Shown: positions 37,407 through 50,135 of the stretch, piece by piece
Position numbering within the stretch: position 1 is the first letter of the stretch
Layout: each line of letters opens with the position of its first letter
NCBI GenBank assembly: GCA_902812465.1
Contig: CADDZE010000012.1
Location: forward strand, 1 to 64,000
Source: Acidobacteriota bacterium
Lineage (GTDB): Bacteria; Acidobacteriota; Terriglobia; UBA7540
DNA: 64,000 nt
Direction: 5' to 3'
The notes under the pieces: generated by a model
Databases searched by the model: none
What the model was told of the DNA's origin: nothing
Seen by the model: only the letters and a program-made list of their open reading frames with translations
Translations under genes and position numbers: made by a program

Positions 37407-38549
37407 TCAGGTTTGCTGCTGAATCCCCGGGATTGGATTGCGGCGCCGGTCGGCGACGATGGTGACCTGAATGTCGCGTGCCAGGCGGACGACCCGCCTT
37501 ACTAGGTCAGGCCGCACGGCAATCAAACCGGACGGCGGCCGGGAGCGTGCTAGGAAAATCTGGGTGATGCCGTGCAGCCGGGCGAAGGCGATCAAGGTTT
37601 CAGCGACGTCCTCGCCCTCGAGGATGCGCGTCTCGATGTGCAGGTTGCGGGCAAAATTTAAGTGCTTCTCCACGGCCTCCCGCTCGTAGGGCTGCAAGTC
37701 ACGGAGGTCGGCGTGCCGGCCGACGAAAACGGCGAAACACTCCGCACGCAGGTAGTCAGTCACCCTTTTGTCGCGGCGAATGAGTGCGGCGCTGGCTGGG
37801 TCTGCGGTAACAACGATGAGAATCTTGTCGTGCCCAGCTGCCGCCGCAGGTGAGCCTGCAATAATTGGCTGGCCACTTGCGGACGGTGTCGAGTAGCGCA
37901 CGTCGATTTCGTGGGCGGTCTGCCGCAAAGCTAATTCACGCAGGGCCACGAGTGTCGATTCTTTGAAGAAGTTCTGCAGCGCGGTTTGGGCCTTTTCCGG
38001 AGGATAGATTGCTCCGCGCTTGAGTCGGTTCAAAAGGGCTTGCGGCGGCAGGTCGACCATCACCACTTCGTCAGCCTGCTGCACCACCCAGTCCGGAATG
38101 GTTTCGCGCACACGAACGCCGGTGAACTGCCACACCTGGTCATTCAGACTCTCTAGGTGCTGCACGTTCATAGTTGTTAAGACGTGGATGCCTGCTTCGA
38201 GGATCTGATGAACGTCTTCCCAGCGCTTGGCGTGCTCGGAGCCAGGCACGTTCGTATGTGCGAATTCGTCCACCAGGCAGTACTGGGGGTGGCGAGCCAA
38301 AACTGCCGCTGTATCCATCTCCTCAAACAGGACGCCTCGATATTCGATCTTCCTTCGGGGTACGAATTCGAGGCCTTCGGCGCGTGCGATAGTGTCCTTC
38401 CGCCCGTGGGCTTCGAGGTAGCCGACGACCACATCGGCGCCCCCCCGCTTTAGCTCATGGGCCTCTTCCAGCATTCGGTAAGTCTTGCCCACTCCAGCAG
38501 CGTAGCCGAGAAAGATTTTCAGCTGACCGCCACGGGGTGCATCCCGCAT
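37407..38549 (-). CDS. KdpD N-terminal domain plus universal-stress domain, separate protein (copy 1)
   Basis: This 380-residue cytoplasmic protein matches the N-terminal half of sensor KdpD and stops before the membrane and kinase parts. The nucleotide-binding motif GYAAGVGKT (15-23) and the Walker-B-like CLVDEFAHTNVPGS are both intact, followed by the family segment TTMNVQHLESLNDQ. The last 130 residues form a universal-stress-type domain (DKILIVVTADPAS, TRILEGEDVAETLIAFA). It lies 12 bases after the second copy, at the end of the kdp operon. The kinase half is encoded separately at 46735-48243. Confidence 0.88.
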   Translation of the reverse strand: MRDAPRGGQLKIFLGYAAGVGKTYRMLEEAHELKRGGADVVVGYLEAHGRKDTIARAEGLEFVPRRKIEYRGVLFEEMDTAAVLARHPQYCLVDEFAHTNVPGSEHAKRWEDVHQILEAGIHVLTTMNVQHLESLNDQVWQFTGVRVRETIPDWVVQQADEVVMVDLPPQALLNRLKRGAIYPPEKAQTALQNFFKESTLVALRELALRQTAHEIDVRYSTPSASGQPIIAGSPAAAAGHDKILIVVTADPASAALIRRDKRVTDYLRAECFAVFVGRHADLRDLQPYEREAVEKHLNFARNLHIETRILEGEDVAETLIAFARLHGITQIFLARSRPPSGLIAVRPDLVRRVVRLARDIQVTIVADRRRNPIPGIQQQT

Positions 38550-38561
38550 TCCAAGGGGTCC

Positions 38562-39662
38562 CTATTGGGGAAATACCCGCACGTCTATACCGTCGGCCTT
38601 CCGAATAAGCTCGTCGACGACGTCACCAAAGATGCGGCTTCGCCAGCTCTCGCGGAAAGTGCGCGGCACGAAGATTTGCGTTATGCCATGAGAACGAGCG
38701 AACCTTAAGATGGTATTAACCGGGTTGCTGCCTTCCAAGGCCTCGATCCGAGCCCCTGCCTGCCTGGCTAAGGCGAGGTTGCGCTCCAAGGCCACCTGTC
38801 GTTCCGCCGTAGTGCGGCGGTTGAGTACATAGACCACAAACCATTCGCCGTGAAAGCGCTGTGCATTGCGCTGGCCACTGGCGATCATCGCCTGTGCGTC
38901 AGCTCCTGGCGTAATCCATAAGAGGAAGCGCTCCCGAGTGCCCCACGTCTGCTCGAGACCGTGCTGCTCGAGGTACTTCTCGAGCTGCCGCTCTACCACG
39001 TCGGCTGCCACCAATAGAGCGATTTCGCGGAGTTGTGCCAATTCCAGCTGGCGGCGGGCGACATCACCGGCCCCTGCTTCAGACTCTTCGCCACGGCAAG
39101 AGTCAGGTGGGGCGTCCACAACCTCGATCTCGTCGGCGAGATTGAGAAAAGCCTGCGGGACGCTCTCCGCCACCCGGCGACCGCGGATTCGCTCGACTTC
39201 CTCTTTATACTCCTCGATGTACTGAAGGTTCACTGTGGTGATCACGGAAATGCCAGCCTGCAACAATTGCTGGGCATCCTGCCAGCGGTGAAGGTGGCGA
39301 CTGCCAGGCGGGTTGTCGTAAGCCAACCCGTCGATGAGGCAGACCTGGGGCCGCCGCTTAAGGATGCGTTCAGTATCCATCGTTGGCACACCTGCCAGGA
39401 CCCGCAGGGGGATTACCTCCATGCGCTCGAGACGCTTCGCCACCTCCGGCGCCACGTGAAGCTGAGTGGCGCCGACGACCACGTCTTCGCCGCGCTCGCG
39501 CCGCCTCCGCCCTTCATCCAGCATGCGGACGGACTTGCCCACGCCGGCCGCATAGCCCAGAAAGATCTTCAGCCGTCCCCGACCCTGGTTTTGCTCCTCT
39601 GCCTGTACCTTGCGCAGGAGCTCCTCGGGGTTTGGCCGCTTGAGGGCGGTGTCAGCAATCAA
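38562..39662 (-). CDS. KdpD N-terminal domain plus universal-stress domain, separate protein (copy 2)
   Basis: This 366-residue paralogue of the next gene downstream keeps the P-loop GYAAGVGKS (36-44), but its Walker-B-like segment is CLIDGLAYDNPPGS, with Gly and Tyr where copy 1 has Glu and His, so nucleotide handling is probably altered. A longer N-terminus (about 28 residues) precedes the domain. The second half is again a universal-stress-type domain (NTILRFARSHGITQIFV). It lies between the porin gene and copy 1. Two divergent KdpD sensor halves may allow separate inputs to one kinase. Function beyond that is inferred. Confidence 0.85.
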   Translation of the reverse strand: MIADTALKRPNPEELLRKVQAEEQNQGRGRLKIFLGYAAGVGKSVRMLDEGRRRRERGEDVVVGATQLHVAPEVAKRLERMEVIPLRVLAGVPTMDTERILKRRPQVCLIDGLAYDNPPGSRHLHRWQDAQQLLQAGISVITTVNLQYIEEYKEEVERIRGRRVAESVPQAFLNLADEIEVVDAPPDSCRGEESEAGAGDVARRQLELAQLREIALLVAADVVERQLEKYLEQHGLEQTWGTRERFLLWITPGADAQAMIASGQRNAQRFHGEWFVVYVLNRRTTAERQVALERNLALARQAGARIEALEGSNPVNTILRFARSHGITQIFVPRTFRESWRSRIFGDVVDELIRKADGIDVRVFPQ

Positions 39663-39752
39663 GGGTCGTCCACTCCTTCATTATTATCGCCGCCTTCGGC
39701 GAAAATTACAGGCAGATACTCCGAGGGCTTGGCCGCGGACGCCGGCGGGAAG

Positions 39753-40999: not shown

Positions 41000-41584
41000 C
41001 TACTGGTGTTTAGGCAGGCTGCGATCCAGCGCGAGATTAAGCAACAGCACGTTGATTCGCGGCTCGCCAAGCAGGCCCAGGGTTCGCCCCTCGGTATGCG
41101 CGGCAATGATCTGCTCAACCTGCCGTAGGCTGACACCGCGGGCCTTGGCCACGCGTGCAGCCTGGGCTTCCGCGGAGGCCGGGCTGATGTGGGGAGCCAA
41201 CCCACTTCCTGACGTTGTGAGGAGGTCTGAGGGGATTATCCCCGCGAATTCTGGATTTTCCCTGTGGAACTCCTCGACCGACGCCTCCACCCGCCTGATC
41301 AGTTTGTGATTCGTCGGTCCGTAATTAGAAGCGTTCGAGGCGCTTGCGTCGTACCCGTCGTTACCCGCCGCCGATGGGCGCGAGTGGAAGTACTCCGGCC
41401 GTTGAAAGTTTTGCCCGATGAGCGCGGAGCCCACCACGCTTCCCTCCGCTTCCACCAGGCTGCCATTCGCCTGCCACCGGAACAGCAACTGGCAGACGGC
41501 CGTCACCAGGCCAGGATAGAAGAGTCCGGTCAGGACCGTTAAGTACAACATCATGCGGAATGCGGATCCCAGCTGGCACCACAT
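41000..41584 (-). CDS. kdpC: Potassium-transporting ATPase subunit C
   Basis: KdpC is a single-span membrane subunit of about 194 residues that raises the nucleotide affinity of KdpB. The N-terminal helix (MMLYLTVLTGLFYPGLVTAV) is followed by the periplasmic domain with GQNFQRPEYFHSRPSAAGNDGYDASASNASNYGPTN split over the family motif (only the start and NYGPTN are diagnostic). GIIPSDLLTTSGSGLAPHISP follows, along with the C-terminal NVLLLNLALD. The ATG at 41584 has GAGGAG six bases upstream and overlaps the kdpB stop region; the frame extends to a TTG at 41602. The gene appears intact. Confidence 0.93.
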   Translation of the reverse strand: MWCQLGSAFRMMLYLTVLTGLFYPGLVTAVCQLLFRWQANGSLVEAEGSVVGSALIGQNFQRPEYFHSRPSAAGNDGYDASASNASNYGPTNHKLIRRVEASVEEFHRENPEFAGIIPSDLLTTSGSGLAPHISPASAEAQAARVAKARGVSLRQVEQIIAAHTEGRTLGLLGEPRINVLLLNLALDRSLPKHQ

Positions 41585-41594
41585 AGGAGGCTCC

Positions 41595-42899
41595 TCAGGC
41601 AAGTTTCAGCCATGCGAGCAACTGGTCGATCAGCCAGATGCCAGGAAAGGGGGCGGCGATCCCGCCGAGGCCGTAGATGAGCAAATTCCGCCTGAGCAGG
41701 CTTGCCGCTCCTTGGGGTTTATACTTGACCCCCCGCAGCGCCAAGGGCACCAGGGCAATGATGATGAGAGCATTGAAGATCACCGCCGCCAGCACAGCGC
41801 TCTGTGGATTGTGCAAGTCCATGATGTTCAGATGGCTCAGTACCGGGTAGGCAGGCGCAAACATCGCCGGGATGATGGCGAAGTATTTGGCTACGTCGTT
41901 GGCGATGGAGAAGGTCGTGAGTGCGCCACGCGTGATGAGCAACTGCTTGCCGATCGCGACGATTTCGATCAGCTTTGTCGGGTTACTATCGAGGTCCACC
42001 ATGTTGCCTGCCTCTTTGGCGGCCATGGTGCCAGTGTTCATAGCCACGCCCACGTCAGCCTGCGCGAGGGCCGGGGCGTCGTTGGTCCCGTCGCCGGTCA
42101 TGGCCACCAGCCGGCCTGCTGCCTGCTCCTTTTTGATGTAGTCCATCTTATCTTTGGGGGTGGCCTGAGCCAGGAAATCGTCTACGCCAGCCTCATTGGC
42201 GATGGCAGCAGCGGTAAGCGGGTTGTCCCCGGTAATCATGACCGTTCGAATTCCCATGGCGCGGAGCTGAGCCAGACGCTCTCGCATCCCACCCTTGACG
42301 ACGTCCTTGAGATGAATGAGTCCCAGCAGCCGCCCGCCATCTGCCACGGCTAGTGGTGTCCCTCCGGTGCGCGAGATGCGATCCGCGACCTCAATCACTG
42401 ACGGAGGAACCCGTCCGCCGTGTTCTTCGACAAAACGGATGACAGCCTCGACGGCGCCTTTGCGCAAGCTGCGGCTTCGCAGGTCCAGGCCGCTCATCCG
42501 CGTGTAGGCGGAAAAGGGAACGAAGCGCGCCTCCCAGCCGGAAATATCCCGCCCACGCAAGCCATACTTCTGTTTGGCCAGCACAACGATGGAACGGCCC
42601 TCCGGTGTCTCATCGGAGAGGCTCGAAAGTTGAGCTGCATCGGCCAGCTCGAGCTCGCTCACACCTTCGGTGGGAATAAACTCGATTGCTTGGCGATTAC
42701 CAAGCGTGATCGTACCTGTCTTATCTAGGAGAAGCGTGTTGACATCGCCGGCGGCTTCCACGGCCTTGCCGCTCATCGCCAGTACGTTGTGCTGCATCAC
42801 GCGGTCCATGCCGGCGATGCCTATGGCGGAAAGCAGCCCGCCGATGGTCGTCGGGATCAGGCAGACAAGCAGCGCGACCAGCACCGTGACCCGTGGCAC
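41595..42899 (-). CDS. kdpB: KdpB, C-terminal portion after frameshift
   Basis: This frame carries the catalytic two-thirds of the potassium-pump ATPase: the phosphorylated Asp in [13 protein letters not shown], the nucleotide domain, [25 protein letters not shown] and the last membrane helices. Its apparent start at 42899 falls in the middle of the membrane helix that ends [13 protein letters not shown], so it is not an independent gene. It joins the N-terminal frame at a run of eight C (42903-42910) on the plus strand; one extra C, or two fewer, restores a single frame of about 705 codons. KdpB hydrolyses ATP to pump K+ through KdpA. It is either a frameshift mutation or an assembly error. 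Confidence 0.9.
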
Positions 42900-43711
42900 C
42901 TGCCCCCCCCGGCGGAGGTCACGGCGTAAACCGAGAAAGGCTGCAGCGTCACGACCGCCACCAGGAAGATCAGCGTAAGCCCGGAGATCAGAATGTTGAG
43001 GGCAATTTCATTAGGGGTCTTCTGGCGCTCAGCTCCCTCGACTAGTGCGATCATCCGATCGAGAAACGTCTCACCGGGATTTGAGGTGATCTTGATCTTG
43101 ATACGGTCCGAGAGAACGCGGGTGCCGCCGGTGACGGCACTGCGGTCGCCGCCGGATTCGCGGATGACGGGGGCGCTTTCACCGGTGATGACTGACTCAT
43201 CCACCGTAGCAATACCTTCGATTACCTCTCCGTCGCCCGGAATCGTATCGCCCGCCTCACACAGGACGATATCGCCGGCGCGAAGCCGCGATGCGGGAAT
43301 CATCTCTATTTTGGCTCCCGCGAGAATACGCTTGGCTACAGTGTCGGTCTTAGCCTTGCGCAAGGTATCGGCTTGCGCCTTGCCACGCGCCTCAGCCATC
43401 GCCTCGGCGAAGTTAGCGAAAAGCACCGTGAACCAAAGCCAAAGCGCAATCTGGAGCGAGAATCGGATGTCGGATGCGTGCCGGATGGCGTCGCGCACGG
43501 CCAAGATTGTGGTAATGCCCGCGCCAACTTCCACCACGAACATGACCGGGTCTCTTGCGAGAGTGAAAGGATTCAGCTTACGCAGCGATTGGCGTGCTGC
43601 GCGTCTAAAGATTGGCCCGTGGAACAGCGGCTGCGCATGGACCAGCTTCCTGGGGAGCAGATGGGTTACAGCTTCGGTGTTTGTACTGGGTTGGGCGACT
43701 ACGGTGCTCAT
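42857..43711 (-). CDS. kdpB: KdpB, N-terminal portion before frameshift
   Basis: This frame encodes the first third of KdpB, from MSTVVAQP through the actuator domain with the TGES dephosphorylation motif (VITGESAPV) and [12 protein letters not shown], as far as [17 protein letters not shown]. Beyond that it leaves the family and runs out after a few non-matching residues. The ATG at 43711 lies 20 bases after kdpA with AAGG upstream. The break is at the C8 run. The same operon has a broken kdpE, so decay of the whole locus is possible. Confidence 0.9.
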
Positions 43712-43731: not shown

Positions 43732-45546
43732 CTAACCCCAGAGTGGAGCCCTAAGGGCAGCGAACAACTTACCCTCCAGCATCAGAAAGTGCTCGACCAG
43801 CGGGCCTAGCGATAGCGCCGGAAAGTAGGTCAGCGCCCCCACAATCATCACTGTTCCAATCAGCAAGCTGACAAAGAGTGCTCCGTGGGTCGGCAAGGTT
43901 CCGCTAGTGGCAGGGATCCGTTTCTTCGCTGCCAGGCTTCCTGCCACTCCAAGCATCGGTATGATAAAGAGAAAACGGCCTACCAACATGGCAACCCCAA
44001 GAGTCAGGTTGTACCAGGGCGTGTTGGCGTTCAGTCCGGCGAAAGCGCTGCCGTTGTTGGCATTGGTGCTGGTGTAGGCGTAAAGGATTTCGCTGAAGCC
44101 ATGTGGGCCGGGGTTGTTGACGTTGGCCACCGCCGGACCGGGCGGGTTCCAATAGCCATTCTTCTGGAAACCGACGACGGAGCTAATCGCAGTGAACACA
44201 AGTACGTTGGCCGCCATGATAATCAGAGCCAGCATGCACAGCTTCACCTCTTTCTGCTCGATCTTCTTCCCGATATATTCCGGCGTGCGGCCCACCATCA
44301 GCCCAGCGACGAAGACTGCGAGGATGGCAAACAGCAGCATCCCCTTAAGCCCGGCGCCGACGCCACCAAATACCACCTCGCCGAGCTGCATGTTGAAGAG
44401 GGGAATGAGGCCACCGATCGGCGTATAACTGTCATGCATGCTGTTGACGGCACCACAGCTCGCATCTGTAGTCACCACCGCAAACAGAGCCGAAGCTGCA
44501 ATGCCGAAGCGCACCTCCTTGCCTTCCATGTTGCCACCTGGCTGAAGCGCAGTGGCATGAGTGTCCACTCCGAGCTGAGCGAGCTCCGGATTACCCGACT
44601 GTTCGGCTCCATAGCATATGAACGCGCCTATTAAGAATAGCACGCTCATCGCTGCAAACAGCGCCCACCCCTGGCGCGTGTCGCCTACCATCCTGCCAAA
44701 CTGATAGGTCAGGCCGGCGGGGATCACAAAGATCATCAGCATTTCAACGAAGTTCGTGAGCGGGGTAGGATTCTCGAACGGATGGGCCGAATTGGTACTA
44801 AAGAAGCCGCCCCCATTGGTTCCCACGATCTTGATAGCTTCTTGTGATGCAACGGGACCTTGGGCGATGGTCTGTGTGATTCCCTCAAGGGTTTTCACCG
44901 TGGTGTAGGGCTTGAAGTTTTGAATCACGCCCTGCCAGCAAAGAAACAGCGCGGCCGCGAGCGAGAGCGGCAGAAACAGGTAAAGGGTCGAGCGCACCAA
45001 GTCCACCCAGAAGCAGCCGAGAGTGTTCGCTTGCCGGCGCGCGAAGCCGCGGATCAGCGCCACAGACGCTGCTACGCCCGCCGCAGCCGAGGCGAAGTTC
45101 TGCACGGTAAGCGCGGCCATCTGTACCAGGTAGCTGAACGTGTTCTCACCCCCATAGCTCTGCCAGTTCGTGTTAGTGACAAAGCTGGCCGCGGTATTGA
45201 ATGCCAGGTCCGGGGTGACGCGCGTGGCATTAGACGGAGCCTGCGCCGAGCCAAAGTGCATTGGGTTGAGAGGCAGGAGGCCCTGCAGGCGCTGAATCAC
45301 GTAGACCAACAGAAAGCTAGCCACGCTGAAGGCAATCAGTGATGCCGCGTATTCCGTCCAGCGCTGCTCTGTATCCTCTCGCACTCCGCAGAGGCGGTAG
45401 AGGAGCTTCTCCAGCGGGCGCAGCAGCGGGTGGAGAAAGGTTCGTTGGCCCTCAAAGACTCTCGTCATGTAGAGGCCTAGCGGCTTGGTCAGCGCCAGAA
45501 TCGCCAGGAAGAAGATCGCGATATTGAAGGCTCCGAGAGGCGTCAT
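43732..45546 (-). CDS. kdpA: Potassium-transporting ATPase subunit A (K+ channel-like subunit)
   Basis: KdpA is the 604-residue membrane subunit that selects and conducts K+. The four filter regions are recognisable: [45 protein letters not shown] and [13 protein letters not shown]. The family start [23 protein letters not shown] is placed at the ATG at 45546; the frame is open to 45636, but the extra 30 residues do not match the family. About ten membrane helices are visible and the gene looks intact. Confidence 0.95.
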
Positions 45547-45646
45547 GCTGCGACTCAACGATCCCGTGGGGCAGAGCGCCGAGACCAGCTCCGAAGGCAG
45601 CTCGAGGCCCAAGCCGGCCGCTTCGCGTTCCACCATTTGACGCGGT

Positions 45647-45730
45647 CTAGAACCGCTCGGGACGCAACAGGGTGTAGACCAAATAACCGAAAAGCAGCAG
45701 CGCTACCACCCCGGCCAGAACGTAATCCAT
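45647..45730 (-). CDS. kdpF: KdpF, small stabilising subunit of the K+ pump
   Basis: This 27-residue membrane peptide (MDYVLAGVVALLLFGYLVYT, then LLRPERF) matches KdpF in size, position before kdpA, and the C-terminal LLRPERF pattern. Its ATG at 45730 has GGAGAG six bases upstream. KdpF stabilises the KdpABC complex in the membrane. Confidence 0.9.
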   Translation of the reverse strand: MDYVLAGVVALLLFGYLVYTLLRPERF

Positions 45731-45742
45731 GCGTGCTCTCCG

Positions 45743-45826
45743 CTAGAGCCGGTCACAGGCCTTGGTAAAAACCCAGCATCCCGCGAAAAAGACTAGCGCG
45801 AGCAAAAGGTAGAACGCGTCGAGCAT
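45743..45826 (-). CDS. Unnamed 27-residue membrane peptide ahead of kdpF
   Basis: A short frame begins at ATG 45826, ends 12 bases before kdpF, and encodes a single hydrophobic helix: MLDAFYLLLALVFFAGCWVF, then TKACDRL. AAGGA lies almost next to the ATG. Similar short peptides ending in a cationic or CDRL-like tail precede kdpF in some other bacteria, as I recall, but none has a known function. It is the first gene of the operon, just after the repeat array, and could be a further small Kdp subunit or a leader peptide. Confidence 0.6.
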   Translation of the reverse strand: MLDAFYLLLALVFFAGCWVFTKACDRL

Positions 45827-45898
45827 ATCCTTTGCAACCGCTCCCAGCTCCGCTGAGTGCGGGTCGTTTGTTGCACCAACACACATTAAGGCGTGAAC

Positions 45899-45942
45899 CA
45901 TAAACGAGGCATAAATCGGCCATCAAAACGGCATAAACGCGG
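45899..45942. repeat. Four phased 11-bp direct repeats, candidate KdpE operator
   Basis: Four consecutive 11-bp units occupy 45899-45909, 45910-45920, 45921-45931 and 45932-45942: CATAAACGAGG, CATAAATCGGC, CATCAAAACGG, CATAAACGCGG. On the coding strand of the operon this reads TTTATG repeated once per helical turn. OmpR-type regulators such as KdpE bind direct repeats with about this period, and the Escherichia coli KdpE site is also T-rich with a TTTATA-like half-site. It lies about 75-115 bases before the first small gene of the operon. The regulator assignment is inferred. Confidence 0.7.
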
Positions 45943-46027
45943 CGTGGACCTAGGGACTCCGCCTGGAGCTGCTGAGCCTATCGATGAAGAGCAAGGGTGG
46001 TGAGGTTGGTCACCAAAAGTTAGTCCG

Positions 46028-46321
46028 CTATTCTACTAGGCAAAGGCGATATCCCACCCACGGCTCGGTGAGCAGATAACGAGGGTGGGCAGGATCGGGC
46101 TCGACCTTCTTGCGAAGGCGGTTGATAAACACCCGCAGGTATTCCTGCTCGTTGCCGTAGTCGGGACCCCAGACCGCCTGCAGGAGTTCACGGTGGGTGA
46201 GCGTTTTGTTAGGGTGCGTAACAAGGTAAGAGAGGAGGTCTACCTCTTTGGGCGTCAGGTGCGTGCAGCCTTGGCAGCCTCTGACCTGCCGCTGCTCGAA
46301 ATCGATCGTAACCTCGCCTAG
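46028..46321 (-). pseudogene. kdpE: KdpE DNA-binding domain, cut off by an in-frame TAG
   Basis: This stretch continues the KdpE frame directly after the stop codon at 46322-46324. It encodes a complete OmpR-type winged-helix domain: LGEVTIDFEQRQV, LTPKEVDLLSYLVTH, LTHRELLQAVWGPDY, YLRVFINRLRKKV and EPWVGYR, ending in a natural stop at 46028-46030. No start codon or ribosome binding site lies at its beginning, so it is made only if the stop is read through or is a sequencing error. It is essential for operator binding. Confidence 0.85.
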
Positions 46322-46738
46322 CTAGACTTGCCTAGGGCTGGCTTCGGGGCTGGAGGGTAAACGGCGCAGCGCGGCGCGAATGCGAGCCAGCAGCTCGGGA
46401 GTGCTGTAGGGCTTGGTGACGTAGTCGTCCGCTCCAGCGTCCAACGCCGCCACTTTGTCCTTCTCGGCGTCACGGACGGTCAGCATAATTATAGCGGTGT
46501 CGAGCGGCGGGCGGGCCGCGCGGACCATCCGACAGGTTTCAACACCGTCCATGCCATTCAGGCCGGGCAGGTTCATATCCAGCAGGATCAGGTCATATCG
46601 ATTCACGCGCACGCTCTCGATAGCCTCGTCGCCGGTGCTTACTGCCGTGACTTCGTATCCTGCCGCGCTCAGTGTGGTCCGCATGACACGGCGGATTTGT
46701 GGGTCATCGTCTACCACCAAAATGCGCCCGGCGCTCAT
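46322..46738 (-). CDS. kdpE: KdpE receiver domain (response regulator, truncated)
   Basis: This 138-residue CheY-like receiver has the acidic pocket (Asp10-Asp12), the phosphorylated Asp54 in LILLDMNLPG, Thr87 in IIMLTVRD and Lys109 in YVTKPYS. It belongs to the OmpR/KdpE group and should be followed by a DNA-binding domain, but a TAG stops translation in the linker. The ATG overlaps the stop of the kinase gene by four bases (ATGA), so the two are translationally coupled. As it stands the product could be phosphorylated but not bind DNA. Confidence 0.88.
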   Translation of the reverse strand: MSAGRILVVDDDPQIRRVMRTTLSAAGYEVTAVSTGDEAIESVRVNRYDLILLDMNLPGLNGMDGVETCRMVRAARPPLDTAIIMLTVRDAEKDKVAALDAGADDYVTKPYSTPELLARIRAALRRLPSSPEASPRQV

Positions 46739-48243
46739 GGGCTGACCTCGGATTCCGCTAGCGGGATAATTAGGCTGAATTCGGAGCCCTCTGCGCCCGT
46801 ACGTTCTAGCCGGACGTCGCCGCCGTGGGCGCGAGCGATCTCGCGACCAATGGCCAAACCCATGCCGGTTCCGCGCGTCCGCCTGGCGTTCGAGCCTCGA
46901 TAGAACTTTTCGAAGATGCGAGACTGCTCGCCGCTGGGAATGCCCGGACCTCGATCCCTTATGCTGACCACGATGGTACTTCCGTCCCGCCGTGCGCCGA
47001 TCCAGACCGGAAATTTTGGCGCGGAATAACGCAGAGCATTATCGACAAGCTGGCGTAAAGCCAATTCCATCAGGCTCCTGTCTACTTCGACGGGCGGAAG
47101 GCCCTGCTCCAGTTGGGCATGAATGATTTTCTCCCCGGCAGCCGTCTTCATCCTCCCGATCACGGCGGCGATCATCTCGCCGACGGCATGCGCTTGCCGG
47201 TGCAGTCGAATACTCCCAGCCTCGATGCGCGCCATCTGAATCGCCTCCGTGACAAGTTGATTAAGATGGTCAATCTCTTCGTCGACCACGGTGAGCAATT
47301 CTCTCTGCTCCGGGCCCTGGCCCACTGTGTCGGAAAGCAAGGCGCTGGTGGCAGCCTTCATCGACGTCAGTGGGGTCTTAAACTCGTGAGCGACAGCGTC
47401 GAGCAAGGCTGACTTCAGCTCCTGGCTCTGGCGCGCCGCTTCTGCCCGGTTGGCTGCATCCTGCGCGCGCGCCCTTTCGAGGCCGATAGCCGCCAGGTTG
47501 GCCAGGCCTTGCAAGACAGTGTCCGAGGGCCACACGCCGCAAACCGCTAGGCTGCCGATGGGCTCTCCACCGAGGCGGACGGCCGTCACCACTGTCCCCG
47601 TAGCATCGTCACGAAAAAGCGTCCCTTGTGTTGCGGCCTCGCGCAGCCGTGGCTCGATGCCCGGTAGGTCTTCGGGACCCGCACGATGGATCTCACCGCT
47701 GTTGCGATCGAAAAGCATGACGGCATCAAATTCAAAGACCTGCGCAATTTCAAAGGCAATCTGCCGGGCCACCGCTTGGTCTGGCCGGGTCAGCAATATC
47801 GACCGGCTGAGGGCATACAGGCGCTCCATGTCGTGTTGGCGGTCAACTGCCTCGCGGGCGCGCTGCCGGGCGCGAGCCGAAAGGTAACTGGCGACAATCG
47901 AAGTGGCCAGGAAAGCGAACAGGGCGACCCAGTTTTGTGGGTCGGCTATGGTCAGAGTGCCCACGGGAGGGAGAAAATAGTAGTTGAATAGCAGCATCGC
48001 CACGAGTGATGCAATCGTCGCTTCGGCCAGCCCTCCCACGGTTGCCACTATTAGTACGGCTACCAGGTAAACGAAGCCCACGGTGGTGGCGTTGACACGG
48101 ATGATGCGAACACAGACGAAGGTGAGACTTGCAACAGCAGCCACGGCTGCCAGCGCTCGCAACGCTAAACCCCAAACGGGCCCTAGGCGAGGGGCTGCGT
48201 GGCCCGATGCCTCGGCTGCGGCTGAATAAGCGAGAGAAGCCAT
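46735..48243 (-). CDS. kdpD: Sensor histidine kinase, C-terminal KdpD type (DUF4118-GAF-HisKA)
   Basis: This 502-residue inner-membrane kinase corresponds to the second half of KdpD. Four membrane helices (DUF4118, residues about 27-122) come first, then a GAF-like domain (about 140-260), a HisKA domain with phosphorylated His286 (AVAHEFKTPLTS), and a HATPase domain with DNALRYS, DRGPGIP and GTGMGLAIG. The N-terminal nucleotide-binding and USP domains of standard KdpD are missing and are found as two separate genes at the other end of the locus. The ATG at 48243 follows a long antisense open frame; everything upstream is a shadow of the M20 peptidase gene. Confidence 0.88.
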   Translation of the reverse strand: MASLAYSAAAEASGHAAPRLGPVWGLALRALAAVAAVASLTFVCVRIIRVNATTVGFVYLVAVLIVATVGGLAEATIASLVAMLLFNYYFLPPVGTLTIADPQNWVALFAFLATSIVASYLSARARQRAREAVDRQHDMERLYALSRSILLTRPDQAVARQIAFEIAQVFEFDAVMLFDRNSGEIHRAGPEDLPGIEPRLREAATQGTLFRDDATGTVVTAVRLGGEPIGSLAVCGVWPSDTVLQGLANLAAIGLERARAQDAANRAEAARQSQELKSALLDAVAHEFKTPLTSMKAATSALLSDTVGQGPEQRELLTVVDEEIDHLNQLVTEAIQMARIEAGSIRLHRQAHAVGEMIAAVIGRMKTAAGEKIIHAQLEQGLPPVEVDRSLMELALRQLVDNALRYSAPKFPVWIGARRDGSTIVVSIRDRGPGIPSGEQSRIFEKFYRGSNARRTRGTGMGLAIGREIARAHGGDVRLERTGAEGSEFSLIIPLAESEVSP

Positions 48244-48624
48244 CACTGAAACTGTAGCGAACCCCGAGGCGAATTTCACCCCACCCGTGCAGGTGGCTGA
48301 ACCATTGCACCTGTGCTGGAGAAACAAACGGTATAGGGTAAGGGTGGATCGAGCCAGCCCTAAGATTGTGTGAGGCGCTGATTCATGCCGGGCAGACGGT
48401 TGCAGGCTGCCCCACGCTCTGGGCCGCACCCAGGAGCGATGCCCTAGCTTGCTTTTCTGGGCTCCCGCGAATACCTTTGTCGATTCGGCTGCTGGGTGCT
48501 GCCCGGAGTGGGCGGGCGCGGTCGGCCTTGGTGATAGCGGTGGGACGGTGCGGGCACGTTTCGCACTCTTGATGCCGGTAGCGGCGTAAACGCCTGCTAA
48601 GCTAGTAGCGAGGGACTTGTTCCG
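48244..48624. other. Divergent intergenic region between the Kdp kinase and M20 peptidase genes
   Basis: No gene, clear promoter pair or repeat could be recognised. Short open frames here are antisense or lack ribosome binding sites. It must hold the promoters of both neighbours. Confidence 0.5.
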
Positions 48625-50061
48625 ATGACGAGAGCGGTAAAGAGGACGTGGGTAGTTTGCCTGATCGCGGCGACGGCGTGCCTGTCTCACCTGGACGCCC
48701 AGGTCGACGCTACCACGAAGGCGCTGGCCCGCGACCTTTTCAAGCAGCTGATCGAGATCAACACCACCGACTCGGTCGGCAGCACGACGGTGGCGGCGGA
48801 GGCCATGGCCAAGCGCCTGCGGGATGCGGGATTTCCCTCGTCGGATGTCGTGGTGCTCGGGCCTCACCCGCGCAAAGGGAACCTGGTGGCGCGGTTGCGC
48901 GGTACCGGTGCCCGCAAGCCCATTTTGCTCATCGGCCACCTCGACGTGGTAGAGGCGCGGCGCGAAGACTGGACCACTGACCCCTTTCAGTTCGTCGAGA
49001 AGGACGGCTATTTCTACGGCCGCGGCACCCAGGATATGAAGGAAGGCGACGCCATCTTCGTCACCACGTTCATCCGGTTCAAGCAAGAGGGATACAAGCC
49101 GGACCGTGACCTCATTCTTGCCCTGACGGCTGACGAAGAGGGTGGAGGGTTCAACGGTGTCGATTGGCTCTTGAAGAATCATCGCGACCTGATTGACGCG
49201 GAGTATGTGCTCAACGCGGACGGCGGCGGCGTCGAAAGCGAAAACGGAAAGCCGCGGGTGGTGAGCGTGGACGCCAGCGAGAAGCTCTATTCCGACTTCC
49301 AGCTCAAGGTAACGAACCCGGGGGGTCATAGTTCCCTGCCCGTGCCAGACAACGCCATCTATCATCTGGCGGAAGGGCTGGTGCGACTTGAGCACTTCCA
49401 ATTTCCTTTCGAGCTCAACCCCGTCACCCGCGCGTACTTCGAGCGCATGGCTACGGTCGAAAGAGGGCAGAGAGCTTCGGATATGAAGGCCATCCTTGAG
49501 ACGCCGCCCGACCCGAGGGCCATCCAGCGGCTTTCCGCGGACCCCATGCTGAACGCCACGATGCGTACCACTTGCGTGGCTACCCGGCTCGACGCCGGAC
49601 ACGCCAACAACGCACTGCCCCAGACGGCGCGTGCCAACATCAACTGCCGCATCCTGCCCGGACACTCGCGGGAGGAGATCCGGCAGACGCTCATCAAGGT
49701 TCTGGCCGACCCGAGGATCGCTGTCGATTACGTGAATAACGCGGGCCGGGTTCTCGACCGCGCGCCCGAAGGTCAGGCGTTCCCGCCGGTCGAGCTGCGT
49801 CCCGAAGTGATAAAACCTCTCGAGCGCCTGGCTGCTCAGATGTGGCCCGGCGTGCCGGTCGTTCCCACGATGGCTACGGGAGCATCCGACGGTGTTTACA
49901 CCAACGCCGCTGGCCTGCCCACCTATGGAATCTCCGGTGTGGCTATCGATAGGGACGACGTCCGGGCTCACGGAAAAGACGAGCGCCTGCGTGTGGAATC
50001 TTTCTACCAAGGGGTCGACTTTTACTACCGTTACCTCAAGATGCTTACGTCGCCTCAGTGA
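48625..50061 (+). CDS. Secreted M20 family metallopeptidase
   Basis: This 478-residue di-zinc peptidase has a signal peptide (VVCLIAATACLSHLDAQ). Metal ligands are visible: His in GHLDVV with its Asp, Asp in GRGTQDMKEGD, the catalytic and metal Glu pair in LTADEEGG, and the Asp in LNADGGG. The dimerisation domain contains NPGGHSSLP, and the C-terminal His in AHGKDER closes the site. Signal-bearing M20 enzymes of this type act on peptides or acylated amino acids in the periplasm. The exact substrate is not visible. It is followed with a four-base overlap by an upstream-extended frame of the next gene. Confidence 0.88.
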   Translation: MTRAVKRTWVVCLIAATACLSHLDAQVDATTKALARDLFKQLIEINTTDSVGSTTVAAEAMAKRLRDAGFPSSDVVVLGPHPRKGNLVARLRGTGARKPILLIGHLDVVEARREDWTTDPFQFVEKDGYFYGRGTQDMKEGDAIFVTTFIRFKQEGYKPDRDLILALTADEEGGGFNGVDWLLKNHRDLIDAEYVLNADGGGVESENGKPRVVSVDASEKLYSDFQLKVTNPGGHSSLPVPDNAIYHLAEGLVRLEHFQFPFELNPVTRAYFERMATVERGQRASDMKAILETPPDPRAIQRLSADPMLNATMRTTCVATRLDAGHANNALPQTARANINCRILPGHSREEIRQTLIKVLADPRIAVDYVNNAGRVLDRAPEGQAFPPVELRPEVIKPLERLAAQMWPGVPVVPTMATGASDGVYTNAAGLPTYGISGVAIDRDDVRAHGKDERLRVESFYQGVDFYYRYLKMLTSPQ

Positions 50062-50135
50062 TCCGAAAGCTGGGGCAGGAAGGCCCTTCACTGGAAGAGG
50101 CAACGCGAAGTGTAGCGCACTCATCCACGCCACTC

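Follow-up and report, generated by a model that had tools for sequence, protein, structure and literature searches.

The window, the whole 64,000-nt stretch that was analyzed, carries a kdp locus (Table 1). On the minus strand, gene order is a histidine kinase, kdpE, an array of short tandem repeats, a small membrane ORF, kdpF, kdpA, kdpB, and kdpC. The small ORF codes for an uncharacterized kdp-operon protein of 27 aa that ends in WVFTKACDRL. Further downstream, past kdpC and a BBP2 porin gene, two separate minus-strand ORFs at 37410-39677 code for the sensor domain of the KdpD N terminus (PF02702), which the second combines with a Usp domain. The sensor of KdpD appears to be split from its kinase, with a downstream coding location in the same orientation.

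Table 1. Coordinates of kdp genes and predicted promoter features in the window
Feature	Position	Strand	Remarks
KdpD-type histidine kinase	46735..50133	-	DUF4118, HisKA, and HATPase_c; no PF02702 sensor domain
kdpE	46028..46738	-	In-frame TAG at 46322-46324, between receiver and DNA-binding domain
Predicted KdpE half-site 1, TTTATG	45932..45942	-	Most upstream; about -61 to -56
Predicted KdpE half-site 2, TTGATG	45921..45931	-	About -50 to -45
Predicted KdpE half-site 3, TTTATG	45910..45920	-	Borders the -35 position; about -39 to -34
Predicted KdpE half-site 4, TTTATG	45899..45909	-	About -28 to -23
Predicted -10 element, TAATGT	45883..45888	-	10 nt past the last half-site
Small conserved membrane ORF, MLDAFYLLLALVFFAGCWVFTKACDRL	45743..45826	-	First after the array; equivalents before kdpF in relatives
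kdpF, MDYVLAGVVALLLFGYLVYTLLRPERF	45647..45730	-	Conserved in relatives
kdpA	43732..45546	-	TIGR00680; likely start at conserved MTPLGAF; listed ORF starts at 45636
kdpB, two frames	41595..43711	-	Split at a G8/C8 tract, 42903-42910
kdpC	41000..41602	-	TIGR00681

Repeat array between kdpE and kdpFABC

The array has units that start at plus-strand positions 45899 (CATAAACGAGG), 45910 (CATAAATCGGC), 45921 (CATCAAAACGG), and 45932 (CATAAACGCGG), with a step of exactly 11 bp. This confirms the coordinates and spacing of the four tandem 11-bp repeats described in an earlier sequence-only reading. The operon strand reads TTTATG-ccgtt-TTGATG-gccga-TTTATG-cctcg-TTTATG, followed by gttcacgcct and then by TAATGT (45888-45883). 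One TTTATG per helical turn had also been claimed, which is correct for the 11-bp step and for three of the units, but half-site 2 is TTGATG.

The array scores 22.5; 2,000 simulations of this upstream region under a first-order Markov model had a maximum of 19.8 and never reached the observed value. A three-unit pattern (CATMAA-n5-CATMAA-n5-CAT) is unique to the array within the 3.9-Mb assembly, and the single match in this genome to a half-site pair combined with a -10 pattern is at the same locus. Because the units are short and the stretch is AT-richer, a chance tandem repeat with no regulatory meaning was considered, but its probability is negligible given the simulations and the conservation of period, phase, and -10 distance across genera. 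The candidate for a fifth half-site, CGTGGAC at 45943 on the upstream side, was rejected; its position is at background in the family and in the remainder of the class, and scores in 2/6 loci from other classes. Other repeat families in the region were rejected as short two-copy chance matches.

Conservation in relatives and distance to the -10 element

Regions upstream of kdpA were gathered from the same family (n = 27), the rest of the class (n = 59), and other classes of the phylum (n = 40), and were scanned with one half-site score at every period from 6 to 16. Using a scoring matrix chosen after the family sequences had been seen, on loci that are related by descent and non-independent, a period-11 array reached the threshold (≥18.5) in 27/27 family loci; no other period did so, except for three cases at period 10. 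None of 270 regions simulated under a Markov null passed the threshold. Beyond the family, period-11 arrays were found in 31/59 loci of the same class and in 8/40 loci of other classes, leaving about half of the other Terriglobia loci and most of the other-class loci with no clear array by score. The array that the sequence-only reading proposed to look for before kdp is thus present in close relatives with its 11-bp period kept, and in its own genome it occurs only at this locus. Four units had been called unusual, which holds against E. coli; within the lineage they are common.

A second alignment used only the -10 element and the last two half-sites as anchors, so that loci were not selected for the upstream pair (n = 55). 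The upstream pair is conserved in these loci (T-60, 87%; A-58, 95%; T-49, 96%; A-47, 96%), and TnA is found in both upstream half-sites in 44 of the 55. In the two Terriglobia sets, the positions next upstream of the four half-sites do not rise above background, giving no fifth unit, and six half-sites are apparently present in 2/6 loci from other classes. Mean pairwise identity is 0.30 in the 10-nt spacer and in the 9 nt upstream of the array. The mean unit score is 5.5-5.7 in the promoter-proximal pair vs 4.6-4.7 in the upstream pair, and in 12/27 family loci no more than two consecutive units are strong. Judging from these alignments, four half-sites with a stronger proximal pair is the architecture of the lineage and no peculiarity of one genome.

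Across the phylum, 54/66 arrays have a hexamer of the form nAnnnT that starts exactly 10 nt beyond the last half-site (≤10 at any other offset), and 39/66 have the stricter TAnnnT there (≤4 at any other offset). Taking this hexamer as the -10 element places the half-sites at about -28, -39, -50, and -61. The array therefore overlaps the -35 region at a fixed distance of 10 nt from the -10, a feature absent from the earlier reading, and transcription in the window would be expected to start near 45876. A generic sigma-70 scan identified no consensus promoter and no -35 element at the array in the window, which is the expectation if an activator replaces the -35. An Rfam search of positions 45600-46400 gave no match, and a riboswitch explanation was therefore dropped.

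Pattern searches of 39 family genomes were used to assess locus specificity. The three-unit pattern (YTTAYG-n5) produced seven matches, all before kdp, and none in controls. The half-site pair plus -10 pattern produced 28 matches, of which 21 are at kdp and seven are elsewhere vs eight matches in controls. Since the seven off-kdp matches are about as frequent as the control matches, a wider KdpE regulon is not claimed from these counts.

Several arrangements outside the usual one were observed. Two species of one genus (L249 in G001 and L251 in G009) have a half-site pair and a -10-like hexamer before a serine/threonine protein kinase gene, which may be a second KdpE target or a result of shared descent. 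Genome G016 has no kdpA match; its array is found after kdpE and before an APC-type permease gene (AA_permease_2; L252, L238). A second array, at a distance of about 2.5 kb, precedes a small ORF similar to those near kdp in relatives. The permease is possibly another potassium transporter under KdpE control. The Acidobacteriota array at a 10-nt distance was not found in the named Rhizobiales and Chloroflexota loci. Rhizobiales loci, including L192 and L218, have TTTATA-n5-TTTATA and, 33 nt later and in phase (3 x 11), TTTATG or TTAATG, with no fixed 10-nt distance to a -10. This is possibly a different two-site KdpE layout.

KdpE as the predicted regulator

We propose, with a probability of about 0.9, that the array serves the response regulator KdpE as its operator at the kdpFABC promoter. 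A KdpE operator had been suggested from the sequence-only reading, and the suggestion is strengthened by the match of half-sites and 11-bp step to those of E. coli and by conservation of the array between kdpE and kdpFABC. The DNA-binding domain of KdpE aligns to that of E. coli KdpE (3zq7, 4kny) with the equivalents of R193, R200, and T215 kept. These residues are present in 52/57 loci, and also in the kdpE of the window, though a TAG precedes the DNA-binding domain there. Binding by another OmpR/PhoB-family regulator, with KdpE not involved, would be compatible with the use of 11-bp direct repeats by many members of this family, with at least five further OmpR-type domains in the genome, and with the interrupted kdpE. 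It is nevertheless very improbable, as the half-site sequence fits KdpE, unlike the TGTCA of PhoB, the array adjoins kdpE, and G016 keeps the array after kdpE despite having no detectable kdpA.

The interruptions in kdpE and kdpB bear on whether the predicted operator is active in the source strain, which is uncertain. The in-frame TAG falls in the linker of KdpE, and kdpB is frameshifted at its C8 tract. Among relatives, kdpE frames identified by tblastn are open in all but one, the exception being a partial frame. This locus (L030 in G002) has a kdpE remnant with an internal stop and an extra short ORF before kdpF. A search of relatives with the nucleotide sequence of the kdpB junction gave no match. 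The lesions reflect either early decay or mistakes in sequencing or assembly, the genome being a draft of 190 contigs. Together with the assembly having no second close copy of KdpE, they leave some room for the operator being a relic in a genome where kdpE and kdpB are decaying, an appreciable possibility that we nonetheless consider the less likely one. Each lesion is a single event in a draft assembly, one of them in a homopolymer, for which sequencing or assembly error is plausible, and the kdpE frame past the stop, the DNA-contact residues, the array, and the -10 are all still well conserved.

Predicted occupancy and comparison with known promoters

Phosphorylated KdpE dimers would occupy the 11-bp direct repeats in a head-to-tail arrangement, with a downstream dimer on half-sites 3 and 4 (-39, -28) and a second dimer on half-sites 1 and 2 (-61, -50), both facing the same side of the helix. 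The dimer on the downstream pair would cover the -35 region at a fixed 10 nt from the -10. From this position it most likely takes over the -35 contact and, like PhoB, brings in sigma region 4. The sites of the upstream dimer are weaker throughout the lineage, and this dimer would probably contribute cooperativity or make the response to scarce K+ steeper.

Occupancy of both half-site pairs in vivo is somewhat favored over its absence. If only half-sites 3 and 4 were functional and half-sites 1 and 2 were degenerate leftovers, the operator would hold a single dimer as in E. coli. The drop in mean unit score in the upstream pair and the family loci with only two strong consecutive units are consistent with this, but we consider it rather unlikely. 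The upstream T and A positions are in phase and conserved in 87%-96% of the 55 loci chosen without reference to the upstream pair, in contrast to the poorly conserved flanks on either side of the array, and half-site 1 in the window is a perfect TTTATG. Binding of two dimers may extend to an Acidobacteriota KdpE promoter class with two adjacent dimers on four phased half-sites, PhoB-like replacement of the -35, and cooperative, switch-like induction of kdp, a combined proposal for which we see even odds.

KdpE is a textbook two-component regulator. Its operator has been mapped in very few species, four according to a 2017 account (PMC5401905). E. coli KdpE binds TTTATA-n5-TTTACA, in which the TTTA of each half-site is essential; one DNA-binding domain occupies each half-site, and the footprint extends from -72 to -50 (PMC3264566). 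The array in the window shares with the E. coli kdpFABC site (3ZQ7, 4KNY) TTTA(T/C)R direct repeats with a 5-bp spacer and an 11-bp step, a conserved location before kdpFABC, and the KdpE contact residues R193, R200, and T215. The half-site is the same apart from the final G in the window. E. coli has two half-sites at -72 to -50, whereas the window has four at about -61 to -23. Because the array does not consist of a single half-site pair at -72 to -50, we regard it as a variant of the KdpE operator and not as an E. coli-type copy. The second E. coli half-site ends 42 nt before TACCCT, which by our own assignment is the likely E. coli -10 and fits the published footprint numbering, and the array ends 10 nt before its predicted -10. 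The Acidobacteriota half-sites would therefore be about three turns closer. For other species, the available part of PMC5401905 describes an E. coli-like KdpE site before kdp in Clostridium acetobutylicum and an unrelated A-rich 22-bp motif before kdp in Mycobacterium smegmatis, and reports a four-half-site array for neither.

PhoB promoters have a similar geometry. The pho box substitutes for the -35 region (PMC4971064), and pho box promoters have 11-bp direct repeats near the -10 in place of the -35 (PMC4415409, PMC4971064), with multiple boxes at some promoters. The array in the window has this class II arrangement, with repeats in place of the -35 at a fixed distance from the predicted -10. 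Its half-sites are TTTATG (TTTAYR) and not TGTCA, so it is not a pho box, and the regulator and signal differ. Relative to E. coli, the conserved promoter design differs in its four units and its placement; the KdpE half-site and the 11-bp step are shared. Four half-sites abutting the promoter appear to be usual in the lineage, whereas the two of E. coli sit farther away. A sharp conserved motif at a fixed spacing from the -10 could serve to find kdp promoters, and further targets of KdpE, throughout Acidobacteriota by prediction. The comparison suggests that one regulator serves two promoter geometries, acting as an upstream activator in one and replacing the -35 in the other.
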